Positions 1-62,802 of a stretch of 64,000 nt of DNA are shown here, piece by piece. Each line of letters opens with the position of its first letter. Position 1 is the first letter of the stretch. The notes under the pieces were generated by a model. That model was given only the letters and a program-made list of their open reading frames with translations. It made no database searches and was not told the origin of the DNA. The stretch comes from Anaeromicropila populeti (GTDB lineage Bacteria; Bacillota; Clostridia; Lachnospirales; Lachnospiraceae): positions 155,719 through 219,718 of the forward strand of contig NZ_FOYZ01000007.1 in the NCBI RefSeq assembly GCF_900112775.1, written 5' to 3'. The position numbers and the translations under genes were made by a program.

Positions 1-789
1 GCGCAAAATCATATCTACCACTTGCTTCCCATCCGGTCTTTGCAGATGCTCTCCTGTTTTAAAGTAATGCTTTATTTGCTGAAAAATCCACGGATTTCCC
101 CTTGCTCCTCGTGCAATCATAACTCCGTCACATCCTGTATGCTCTAGCATTGCCTTTGCATCCTCCGGAGTCACCACATCTCCATTTCCAATCACAGGTA
201 CTGACACCGCCTCTTTTACCGCAGCAATACTGTCCCAGTCCGCTTTTCCGCTATAGTATTGTTCCCTGGTACGTCCATGCACCCCAATTGCTTTCGCTCC
301 GCTATCCTCTAGACGCTTTGCCAAATCCACAATTTTACAGTCCTTTTCTCCAAATCCAATTCGTATTTTTACGGTAACAGGCTTTTCAATGGCTTTGGTG
401 ACAGAAGAAACAATCTTTCCAGCCAGTTGGTGGTTTTTCAAAAGTGCAGAACCTTCTCCATTGTTCACAACCTTAGGAACTGGACAGCCCATATTAATAT
501 CTAGTATATCAAAATTACGTTCTTCTATTTTTGCCGCCATAGATCCCATTATATCTGGATCTGCTCCAAAAAACTGCAATGCAACAGGTCTTTCCTTTTC
601 CTCTACCTCTAACAGCAATCCAGTATTTTTATTATTATAGTAAATCCCTTTTGCACTGACCATCTCCGTGTAAATTAAGTCAGCACCCATTTCTTTGCAT
701 AACAAACGATATGGCAGGTCTGTTACTCCTGCCATTGGTCCAAGAACTAAAGTTCCATTAATATTCACATTTCCAATCTTAAAACTCAT
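1..789 (-). CDS. dus: tRNA-dihydrouridine synthase (3' end cut by the window edge)
   Basis: FMN-dependent reductase that makes dihydrouridine in tRNA D-loops. 263 residues are visible and the frame runs open to base 1, so roughly 60 C-terminal residues are missing compared with the usual ~320. The flavin-site segment LGPMAGVTDLPYR lies near residues 16-28, and the catalytic cysteine is Cys102 in DINMGCP. VKIRIG and GVHGRTREQ follow in the expected order. Two in-frame ATGs occur at the junction with coaX. The one at 789 has AAAGG eight bases upstream, while the one at 795 overlaps the coaX stop and is too close to the ribosome site. Translation is therefore probably coupled to coaX. The motif pattern is DusB-like, but the subfamily is inferred. 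Confidence 0.93.
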   Translation of the reverse strand, partial: MSFKIGNVNINGTLVLGPMAGVTDLPYRLLCKEMGADLIYTEMVSAKGIYYNNKNTGLLLEVEEKERPVALQFFGADPDIMGSMAAKIEERNFDILDINMGCPVPKVVNNGEGSALLKNHQLAGKIVSSVTKAIEKPVTVKIRIGFGEKDCKIVDLAKRLEDSGAKAIGVHGRTREQYYSGKADWDSIAAVKEAVSVPVIGNGDVVTPEDAKAMLEHTGCDGVMIARGARGNPWIFQQIKHYFKTGEHLQRPDGKQVVDMILR

Positions 790-59749: not shown

Positions 59750-60898
59750 TTATTCGCGTGCCCTTGGAGGTTTTGGTCCCATAAACTGATAAAAATACGT
59801 TTTCATCATTCCATTATAAATTTTTCTGTTTTTGGTAGCTTTCTTCCCAATATATTTTTGAGCATCTTCATAACCAGAAATTATAAAACAAGACCACGTC
59901 TCCATATTTTTCAGCACTTCACCAATTTCACCATATAACTCTGGCATATACTCTTTTTCAGAAAGCCTTTCTCCATATGGTGGATTTGTAATAATAAACC
60001 CATATTTCTTAGGATGTTTCAGGTCTTTAACTGCCCTTTGCTGAAAGTGAATTAGTTGATCTACCTCTGCACGCTGTGCATTTTCTCTTGCCGCCTTTAC
60101 CATATCATCACTGATATCGTATCCCTGAATATTCATAATAACATCTCTGTTTATCCTTGCATATGCTTCTTCTATTGCACTATACCATTCTTTTTTAGGT
60201 ACAATATTAGTCCAACTCTCTGCTATAAAAGAACGATTCATTCCTGGCGCAATTTTTGCACCAATCATAGCTGCTTCTATCGGAATGGTTCCACTTCCAC
60301 AAAAAGGATCAACCAGTGGTCTGTCTTTATTCCATGGAGAAATTAGAATGAGTGCTGCTGCCAAAGTTTCCTTTATCGGTGCCTTTGCAGTAGCCTTTCG
60401 ATACCCTCTTTTATGAAGACCCAAACCTGTCGTATCTAATCCAACCACAACCTCATCCTTTAAAAGAGTAACCCGAATCGGATATTCTGCACCTGTCTCA
60501 TCTAAAGACTCTGTTTTATAAGCCACTTTCATTCTATCAACAATGGCTTTTTTCATTATAGACTGAATATCTGGTGTACTTTTTAAATCACTCTTTACTG
60601 TAGTAGCTTTTGTAACCCAGAACTTGGCGTTTTTAGGGAGATATCTTTCCCATTCAATTGCTTTCGTATTTTCAAATAATTCATCAAATGTCTTTGCCTG
60701 AAATTTTCCTACTTTAAGCAGGATTCTCTCAGCTGTTCTTAAAAAAATATTTGCTCTTGCAATTGCTTCTGATTCTCCAGAAAATGTAATCTTACCATCT
60801 TCTACTTCTACAATCTCATAGCCTAAATCTTGTATTTCCCTCTTTAGCACTGCTTCTATTCCAAAATGACAGGGTGCCACATATTCAAACTTACTCAT
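59750..60898 (-). CDS. THUMP-domain class I RNA methyltransferase (YpsC/RlmL N-terminal type)
   Basis: 382 residues. The N-terminal ferredoxin-like plus THUMP region (to about 160) binds RNA. The methylase core has VDPFCGSGTIPIEAAMIG (SAM site and START), YDISDDMV, and the N-methylase motif FIITNPPYGERL. This resembles the RlmL N-terminal half (23S rRNA m2G2445) and B. subtilis YpsC. Target inferred, not proven. AAAGGAG lies upstream of the ATG. Confidence 0.92.
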   Translation of the reverse strand: MSKFEYVAPCHFGIEAVLKREIQDLGYEIVEVEDGKITFSGESEAIARANIFLRTAERILLKVGKFQAKTFDELFENTKAIEWERYLPKNAKFWVTKATTVKSDLKSTPDIQSIMKKAIVDRMKVAYKTESLDETGAEYPIRVTLLKDEVVVGLDTTGLGLHKRGYRKATAKAPIKETLAAALILISPWNKDRPLVDPFCGSGTIPIEAAMIGAKIAPGMNRSFIAESWTNIVPKKEWYSAIEEAYARINRDVIMNIQGYDISDDMVKAARENAQRAEVDQLIHFQQRAVKDLKHPKKYGFIITNPPYGERLSEKEYMPELYGEIGEVLKNMETWSCFIISGYEDAQKYIGKKATKNRKIYNGMMKTYFYQFMGPKPPRARE

Positions 60899-60946: not shown

Positions 60947-61255
60947 TTATCCGTCAACGGATATTTTTCCTCTGTAAGCATGAAAACCTCCGTAGACATT
61001 AATTATTTTGTAGCCTTGCCTTGTTAATACCCTTGCAAGCTGTAGGCTGAGCCCTCCACGCTCGCAATATACAATATAATAATAGCCTGCTACCAAACAA
61101 ATCTGATTATTTTCAAATGCTTCAAATGGGATATTTATAGCAGATGGGATATGCCCACGCAAGTAATCTTCTTTATTCCTTAAATCAATTATCTTACAAT
61201 CCGCTCTTCCTATATATTGGAATATATCTTTTGCAGGAATCGACGTAACATTCAT
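60947..61255 (-). CDS. Small rhodanese-domain protein
   Basis: 102 residues forming one rhodanese domain. CKIIDLRNKEDYLRGHIPSAINIP is the CH2A-like start, and the active loop YCERGGLSLQLA retains the cysteine. These proteins carry persulfide sulfur. The loop CERGGLS is six residues, as in sulfur-handling rhodaneses rather than phosphatases. Stand-alone gene. Confidence 0.88.
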   Translation of the reverse strand: MNVTSIPAKDIFQYIGRADCKIIDLRNKEDYLRGHIPSAINIPFEAFENNQICLVAGYYYIVYCERGGLSLQLARVLTRQGYKIINVYGGFHAYRGKISVDG

Positions 61256-61403: not shown

Positions 61404-61688
61404 TTAATATTTGTCTGAAGTGTTGTTTGTACTATTTGAATAATTTGAGGTTGTACCACCTGTTGAATTTTTTGATGTGCTGGATGTTGTATTTTTAGAG
61501 CTGTTTTTTGAAGCATTTCTTGCGTTACTTGTATTACCTGTGTTACTTGCATTATTTGCATTACTTGTGCTGCTTGTTCCACTATAGCTGTTTGCATTGC
61601 TGTAATTATTCTGTGAAGAACAATCCTGATATGCATTATTACTCCTGTTAGTATCCTGTGTGCTATTATTACTATAATTTTTAGCCAT
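61404..61688 (-). CDS. Asn/Ser/Thr-rich low-complexity small protein
   Basis: 94 residues beginning MAKNYSNNSTQDTNRSNNAY; more than half are Asn, Ser or Thr, with a lone Cys. There are no folded-domain or membrane signs. GGAGGC is well placed before the ATG, and a strong terminator follows, so it is a real gene. Another frame across the same bases is also open, which is a by-product of the repeats. Small N/S/Q-rich proteins occur among spore or surface proteins of Clostridia; no function can be assigned. Confidence 0.7.
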   Translation of the reverse strand: MAKNYSNNSTQDTNRSNNAYQDCSSQNNYSNANSYSGTSSTSNANNASNTGNTSNARNASKNSSKNTTSSTSKNSTGGTTSNYSNSTNNTSDKY

Positions 61689-61799: not shown

Positions 61800-61828
61800 T
61801 TGATTTTTAAATGTAAATGTACTATAAT
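61800..61828 (+). promoter_or_regulatory. Promoter of the candidate small RNA
   Basis: Plus-strand TTGATT (61800-61805), 17 bases, TATAAT (61823-61828). No open reading frame of any size follows with a ribosome site. Confidence 0.75.
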
Positions 61829-61834
61829 GAGTTT

Positions 61835-61953
61835 GTGTTAAGAGTTCACCCCTTAAATGAACTCTGATTCGCACACTATATAACCCCTTATTAATTATTT
61901 ATACTCCCCTCATCGAAACACCGCCATGGCTCCCCCTTGGCGGTGTTTCATTT
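61835..61953 (+). ncRNA. Candidate small RNA with C-rich loops
   Basis: About 115-120 bases, from the expected start near 61835 to the terminator hairpin GAAACACCGCCA / TGGCGGTGTTTC (61915-61926 and 61938-61949), which is followed by ATTTGT. An 8-base hairpin AGAGTTCA/TGAACTCT (61841-61848, 61858-61865) lies at its 5' end. ACCCCTTA occurs twice (61848-61855 partly in the loop, 61883-61890 unpaired), TCCCCTCA near 61905, and CTCCCCCTT in the terminator loop. C-rich unpaired segments are typical of Firmicute small RNAs that pair with Shine-Dalgarno sequences. The region 61689-62248 has no other clear gene on this strand. Confidence 0.65.
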
Positions 61954-61975
61954 GTAAAAATATATTCTTTGATAT

Positions 61976-62248: not shown

Positions 62249-62758
62249 CTATCTGCGCTTCCATACGCCTAAAAATACCTTTATAAGCAGATAAATTAAT
62301 ATAATAGGCAGGATAACCGAAAATAGTAATTGAACAGCAAATTTAATCACAATTACTAATACTAAAATAAAAGCAACATACGTAATAATTCTTCTCATTC
62401 GCTCAAAAAATCTATTCTTATTTATTTCGCTTCCTCCCTTGGCTCTAGGTTTACTGCTTCTTCCTGTACCCTCTTCACCTTCATACTCTTCGTATTTTAC
62501 CTCTTCATAGGCATTATTTCTATTCTGCTTCCATCCGCCATATTTATATCTCCCTGACATCTTATAAGTATCGATAATTGTTTTTGCTATCAGCCTGGGG
62601 TCTCCTATTTGATTCACTATATTTTCTTCTGATTCTTGCTTCATTTTGCAAGATTCAATATAATCACTATAATATTTTATATGCCCATCTACAATATGAC
62701 TTGGCATTTCATCCTGCAATGTTTCTCTTAATTGTTTCAGAAACTCTTCTTTATTCAT
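62249..62758 (-). CDS. DUF1700 family membrane protein
   Basis: 169 residues from the ATG at 62758 (AGGAG six bases upstream; the ATG six bases earlier is too close). The N-terminal NKEEFLKQLRETLQDEMPSH and YYSDYIE, plus GDPRLIAKTIIDTY, are the DUF1700 helical domain; a charged linker follows. Two hydrophobic segments at about 127-165 end the protein. DUF1700 genes often accompany PadR regulators and DUF4097 adhesin-like proteins, neither of which is present here. Confidence 0.85.
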   Translation of the reverse strand: MNKEEFLKQLRETLQDEMPSHIVDGHIKYYSDYIESCKMKQESEENIVNQIGDPRLIAKTIIDTYKMSGRYKYGGWKQNRNNAYEEVKYEEYEGEEGTGRSSKPRAKGGSEINKNRFFERMRRIITYVAFILVLVIVIKFAVQLLFSVILPIILIYLLIKVFLGVWKRR

Positions 62759-62802
62759 TAGCATCTCCTTTTATTCATATAAATAATTCTACTAATGATT
62801 CT

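Follow-up and report, generated by a model that had tools for sequence, protein, structure and literature searches.

Between two likely flanking genes, both on the minus strand, the Anaeromicropila populeti DNA that we analyzed (the whole stretch of 64,000 nucleotides, hereafter the window) carries a promoter-like sequence followed by two potential hairpins, which raises the question of whether a small RNA (sRNA) is made here and, if so, what it does. We predict an sRNA gene at window positions 61835 to 61955 on the plus strand, the product of which is likely a noncoding RNA of about 120 nucleotides (nt). The promoter (61800 to 61828) has a -35 element, TTGATT, at 61800 to 61805, a 17-nt spacer, and a -10 element, TATAAT, at 61823 to 61828, and its position predicts a start at G61835 on the plus strand. 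The predicted RNA opens with a 5' hairpin (61835 to 61874) built on an 8-bp stem, AGAGTTCA/TGAACTCT (61841 to 61848 paired with 61858 to 61865), with outer GTGT/GCAC pairs and a C-rich loop, CCCCTTAAA, that includes CCCC. The motif ACCCCTTA occurs twice in the RNA, at 61848 to 61855 and 61883 to 61890, and TCCCCTCA is found at 61905 to 61912. A 31-nt core with two C-tracts (61882 to 61912, plus strand; AACCCCTTATTAATTATTTATACTCCCCTCA, or AACCCCUUAUUAAUUAUUUAUACUCCCCUCA in RNA form) is predicted to be single stranded and contains the 13-mer TTTATACTCCCCT (61898 to 61910, plus strand). The core is followed by a terminator hairpin (61915 to 61949) with perfect 12-base arms (61915 to 61926 and 61938 to 61949) and an 11-nt loop, TGGCTCCCCCT, that exposes CTCCCCC. 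The tail, ATTTGT (61950 to 61955), is the probable 3' end and is U poor, which is weak for an intrinsic terminator. The promoter, the 8-base 5' hairpin, the repeated motif, the terminator with 12-base arms, and its C-rich loop had all been named in the initial annotation, and all are present.

The fold of the 126-nt RNA was markedly stable (-36.3 kcal/mol; z = -7.9), and none of 200 shuffled sequences was equally stable. No open reading frame (ORF) of 40 or more amino acids lies inside the RNA, in line with the initial annotation, and the frames that overlap it are 21, 29, and 32 amino acids long. Coding potential was rejected for want of such a frame and because insertion of a single base recurs in the core. 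The hairpin is missing from the output of a terminator scan, which admits loops of up to 8 nt, whereas this loop has 11 nt and the tail is T poor. The 1-kb stretch around the locus held 6 promoter-like sites versus 5.9 expected from shuffles, which is no excess; this promoter rises above chance because it is conserved in relatives. Rfam includes an LhrC family and an RsaE/RoxS family. On the plus strand of the locus, no Rfam 15 family matched at gathering scores or at a permissive E value, and the permissive search returned weak matches to the minus strand only. Rfam 15 likewise gave no match at gathering scores at the core in 18 relatives. The match to a known RNA family that, according to the initial annotation, would have refuted the gene was thus not found in Rfam.

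The upstream flank holds a divergent gene for a rhodanese-domain protein (60947 to 61255, minus strand; PF00581) and, beyond it, a gene for an RlmL-type methyltransferase (59750 to 60898; PF22020, PF02926, and PF01170). Downstream is a convergent HAAS-like gene (62249 to 62764, minus strand; PF22564, E = 8.9e-6, with 26.4 bits against a cutoff of 27). Because the likely flanking genes lie on the minus strand, the RNA is not the leader of a neighbor in the window. This orientation is not general: among 151 loci flanked by an ORF on either side, 55 had the two ORFs on the opposite strand, and in 50 the downstream ORF was on the strand of the RNA. Of 172 distinct core loci, 98 have an rlmL, rhodanese, or Ham1-type gene no more than three ORFs upstream, and 29 combine this with a HAAS-like gene downstream. 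The Asn/Ser-rich small gene that had been noted beside the RNA does adjoin it here, as a divergent ORF of 94 amino acids without a Pfam match (61404 to 61688, minus strand), but it is not among the 15 largest clusters of neighbors.

We surveyed 200 genomes of the family, one per genus, with the 13-mer only, a choice made to lessen selection bias, and then read the loci that were found. The sRNA was present in 95 of these genomes, of which 20 were counted from loci read before and one (G031) from a BLAST match alone. The automatic rule also let through four loci, three reading as coding sequence and one (L270) linked to a tRNA, that were moved by hand to the 24 other places. Most carriers (91 of 95) have one copy, three genomes have two, and one has four. 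A BLAST search of 98 genomes gave matches below an E value of 1e-5 in 32, the source genome included (28 of 60 from the same family and 4 of 38 from other families); the remaining matches, with E values up to 1, were mostly short and look like chance. Outside its own family, the sRNA is found in a few more families within the order. Three genomes of another such family (G188, G128, and G246) each carry three paralogues (L179, L180, and L188 to L194) whose hairpins differ and whose core is the same. A 19-mer taken from the core was matched exactly by at least 119 stretches in genomes of named species. The carriers among the matches listed (80 titles) include Blautia, Mediterraneibacter, Dorea, Agathobacter, Anaerostipes, Enterocloster, Herbinix, and Lachnotalea, all of which we take to be Lachnospirales, and many other titles among the matches listed name only Lachnospiraceae, Clostridiales, Clostridia, Bacillota, or bacterium.

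A covariance model of the RNA, used with strict filters, matched 46 genomes in a sample of 295 from the order and 9 in a sample of 391 from the class. Six of the nine are family members; the other three matches are weak and were put down to chance, since one has a core with 3 mismatches and two have no core at up to 5 mismatches. The source genome has a second weak match to the model (G000:C22:275775-275882; E = 0.005), which is likely chance and has no recognizable core at up to 5 mismatches (L187 and L206).

The core is the best-kept part of the RNA. About 20 nt are nearly invariant in carriers, and in an alignment of 48 sequences, a diverse set that was selected on the core (51 were chosen and 3 left out), the core columns were invariant or nearly so and the hairpins were not. 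Among the 79 newly read family loci, which were selected on the 13-mer only, the 10 nt preceding the 13-mer were unchanged in 63 and had three or fewer changes in 75. From 150 loci we extracted 139 distinct copies, with 8 dropped as too near an end. Over these 139 RNAs, the core was predicted to be unpaired with a median probability of 0.94, and the value exceeded 0.9 in 95 of them. A 34-nt segment spanning the core had no G in 85 copies, one in 49, and two in 5.

The terminator stem behaves differently, in that its letters drift and its pairing is maintained. In 20 aligned relatives, 92.2% of the stem cells pair, and 39 cells had changed on both sides, versus 12.1 in shuffles. The covariation score was 0.655, compared with 0.247 in shuffles and 0.245 for the best slid version, and none of 500 shuffles scored as high. 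The number of pairs with two-sided changes, 7 of 8, taken alone was reached by 61 of the 500 shuffles. The predicted terminator loop is exactly CTCCC in 88 of the 139 copies. CCC anywhere in the terminator was found in 106 (76%), hardly above the 73% of shuffles, and was missing from 33. In the 5' part, CCC was present in 77 copies versus 34% of shuffles, leaving 62 without it. This 5' part was more stable than shuffles at a z of less than -2 in 129 of 139 relatives, with 65 different 7-nt stem starts. In these models, the C-rich motifs of the core and of the CTCCC loop are conserved at positions predicted to be unpaired.

The promoter is kept as well. Of 130 relatives, 115 have the pattern TTG-N3-(16..18)-TAT[AT][AC]T ahead of the core, versus 2.6% of shuffles, a count that omits 9 of the 139 copies with short upstream sequence and uses a TTG rule picked after the relatives had been seen. 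The spacer was 17 in 109 relatives, and the commonest -35 elements were TTGCTT and TTGCAT. The first rule, based on TTGACA, did worse (48 of 139 versus 12.6% in shuffles). In a wider set, the pattern was missing from 32 of 167 copies, two of which were cut by a contig end. The copies without it include seven from g119, the multicopy genus of the three-paralogue genomes above (G107 included); lacking this -35/-10 pattern, these seven may be controlled differently. Also without it are three extra copies with a Blautia-type core variant (L050, L056, and L125), one of which, L056, has no terminator by eye. The conservation of the hairpins and the core C-motifs in relatives, the covariation, and the promoter conservation strongly support the original proposal of an unannotated sRNA gene with two hairpins and exposed C-rich segments, so that the lack of conservation named there as a refutation did not come about, and its sequence marks the RNA as a putative separate gene with its own promoter and terminator.

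What such an RNA would do is suggested by LhrC of Listeria monocytogenes, which has CU-rich sites in loop A, in a single-stranded stretch, and in the terminator loop and blocks an SD (Shine-Dalgarno) sequence, with Hfq dispensable (PMC4132741). All three sites are described there as able to bind lapB mRNA, the single-stranded site much more weakly than the loops, and RsaE and FsrA are described as binding their targets through UCCC, which pairs with SD sequences (PMC4132741). The RNA in the window shares with LhrC the order of a 5' hairpin, a single-stranded stretch, and a terminator hairpin, and it is similarly G poor. It also has C-rich sites in loop A, the single strand, and the terminator loop, although the loop motifs are not universal among the copies. 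Like LhrC it can be multicopy, with up to four copies per genome, but 91 of 95 carriers have one. Unlike LhrC, it has no Rfam covariance match. It is best conserved in a long single-stranded core, the middle of which is AU rich; in LhrC, by contrast, the single-stranded site binds more weakly than the loops. Exposed UCCC motifs, as described in the same source, liken it to the RsaE/FsrA class, and it differs from RsaE/RoxS in lacking a covariance match on the plus strand.

RoxS belongs with the C-rich sRNAs RsaE and FsrA, whose hairpin arrangement differs from that of the window RNA. The csRNAs of streptococci have two hairpins and use an unpaired stretch to bind SD regions, and unlike them, the window RNA has no Rfam match. 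Searches of the literature on sRNAs of Lachnospiraceae or Clostridia and on structured RNAs gave no title or abstract opening that describes such an RNA, although a candidate motif could sit in the supplementary tables of PMC8040213.

An Hfq-dependent sRNA would need Hfq in its host. Hfq (PF17209) was found in none of 60 family genomes, the source genome included, some of which are incomplete, but in 22 of the 38 genomes from elsewhere in the order, which points to an apparent family-wide loss of Hfq. We therefore rejected the AU-rich core as an Hfq-binding site for the family and do not place the RNA in the Hfq-dependent class; an Hfq-independent route would be needed there. Four sRNA carriers outside the family (G062, G079, G092, and G093) do have Hfq, and so its absence from the family does not settle which partner the RNA uses. 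KhpA/KhpB-type KH proteins were matched in 60 of the 61 genomes searched, twice in the source genome.

We favor, with a probability of about 0.58, the reading that this is a conserved sRNA gene whose noncoding RNA of about 120 nt acts in trans to repress several mRNAs, its C-rich segments pairing with G-rich SD sequences, likely without Hfq. An Hfq-independent anti-SD sRNA is favored because the plan resembles that of LhrC and Hfq was not found in the family. In this scheme, transcription would start at G61835, the 5' hairpin would cap the end of the RNA, and the core would be unpaired inside the cell. ACCCC, ACUCCCCUC, and the CUCCC of the terminator loop would then serve as redundant anti-SD contacts, as in Listeria LhrC, and mRNAs once bound would not be translated. 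The C-tracts sit in loops and in the single strand, the places that an anti-SD sRNA would use.

Searches for targets gave no conserved long antisense partner. The 14-mer GAGGGGAGTATAAA, allowing up to 2 mismatches, matched 31 places in the source genome, the sRNA itself included, versus 51 for the backward control. We read 30 of the 31 (one is the sRNA), and three, L226, L229, and L237, have a start codon and an ORF of at least 40 amino acids at SD distance; with no excess over the control, a single long-complement target in this genome was rejected. Exact AGGGGAGTATAAA occurred outside the sRNA genes 24 times in 200 genomes versus 38 backward-control matches. The pattern AGGGGAGTAT-N(1-6)-ATG occurred at 114 places and its backward control at 83, but genuine pairs of an SD sequence and a start codon could by themselves produce this excess (the 38, 114, and 83 are our own tallies from the search tables). 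Among 110 of these places that we read, 70 of them with an ORF of at least 40 amino acids, there was no convincing recurrent orthologue; of the others, three were known already (L301, L321, and L327) and one, in G004, was left out.

The one recurrent cluster, seven near-identical genes from seven genera, AraC-like by eye and carrying AGGGGAGTATTTCATG (L370 to L372 and L377 to L380), was rejected as a target because its DNA hardly differs between genera and looks recently transferred, because the frame is open for 50 codons upstream, making the start doubtful, and because one of the seven genomes, G025, has no 13-mer match; blastp had joined an eighth, unlike place to this cluster. Pairing with 23S rRNA was also rejected as chance, since the 9-nt perfect complement that the core has there was equaled by 29% and 27.5% of 200 shuffled cores in the two 23S sequences tested. 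Because long complements are not enriched, pairing, if any, would go through short seeds invisible to these searches. The claim of the initial annotation that the RNA represses in trans mRNAs with GGGG or GAGG sites is plausible by analogy with the LhrC-class architecture, and the conserved long antisense partners that would bear it out were not found in these searches.

The core also appears in phages. At an E value of 1e-5, no homologue of the whole RNA was found in plasmid or phage records. The exact 19-mer of the core had seven matches in viral contigs, and in four of them (L457, L460, L461, and L463) a hairpin follows the core, which lies among genes matching PHROGs families (holin and endolysin; a recombination directionality factor; a DNA helicase and a phrog_36 regulator; a RusA-like resolvase). 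We discarded the other three by eye: L462 looks like coding sequence, L458 is the same around the core as the bacterial paralogue L192, and L459 looks bacterial. In L461, a tRNA-Thr gene ends about 20 nt before the core, and in L460, a tRNA-like gene (an odd tRNA call) lies at a similar distance of about 20 nt. In the family genome G815, L270 has the 13-mer and a hairpin just downstream of a tRNA-Met gene. L460, L461, and L270 are possible tRNA-trailer-borne copies of the sRNA core. A looser viral pattern gave 13 further loci, which we regard as chance, with no tRNA found and no flanking hairpin module by eye. With the phage-borne copies, the idea that phages imitate a host regulatory RNA becomes open to test.

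These observations bear on three other explanations of the locus. The roughly 20 nearly unchanged letters exceed what short seeds need, and because they include the AU-rich middle, the conserved core suggests a second role, for example, as a protein site. Taken further, the core could be mainly the binding site of a protein other than Hfq, with the C-tracts part of that site and the RNA acting as a sponge or guide. The almost letter-perfect conservation of an AU-rich part that has no SD complement, the lack of enrichment of long mRNA complements, and the near-ubiquity of KhpA/KhpB-type proteins alongside the missing Hfq all speak for this reading. However, C-tracts recur in loops besides the core, which fits redundant pairing sites, and with Hfq present in the four carriers outside the family, its absence elsewhere does not identify a different partner. 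We consider a core serving mainly as a protein site somewhat unlikely, with a real chance of being right. Repression by C-rich pairing, our preferred reading, leaves room for a protein contact at the core as a second role.

The tRNA-linked copies and the three Blautia-type variants without a promoter pattern would also fit a view in which the core and terminator hairpin can be joined to different transcripts as a 3'-end module, whether it serves processing or stability or yields a 3'-derived sRNA, the stand-alone gene being one use of it. Against this, the promoter pattern recurs at a fixed spacing and the 5' part is stable in most relatives, so that the usual form is a separate gene; moreover, the stretch from the tRNA to the terminator in L461 is no more structured than shuffles (z = -0.33). 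We judge the module improbable. A conserved DNA element or a chance AT-rich sequence that makes no RNA would agree with the unremarkable number of promoter-like sites in the surrounding 1 kb, but the compensatory pairing in the terminator stem, the conserved promoter, and the preservation of the hairpins flanking the core indicate selection at the RNA level, which makes such an element very hard to credit.

Lachnospiraceae are among the commonest gut bacteria. An Hfq-free regulon might extend across the family, in which the core of about 20 nt is an RNA "address" read by a protein or ribosome partner and phages copy the address onto tRNA tails or small RNAs, either to seize control of the regulon or to jam it; we offer this as an unlikely, speculative reading. 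With no Hfq found in the sampled genomes of this family, a single RNA that about half of the sampled genera preserve with hardly a changed letter would provide a direct handle on chaperone-free posttranscriptional control.
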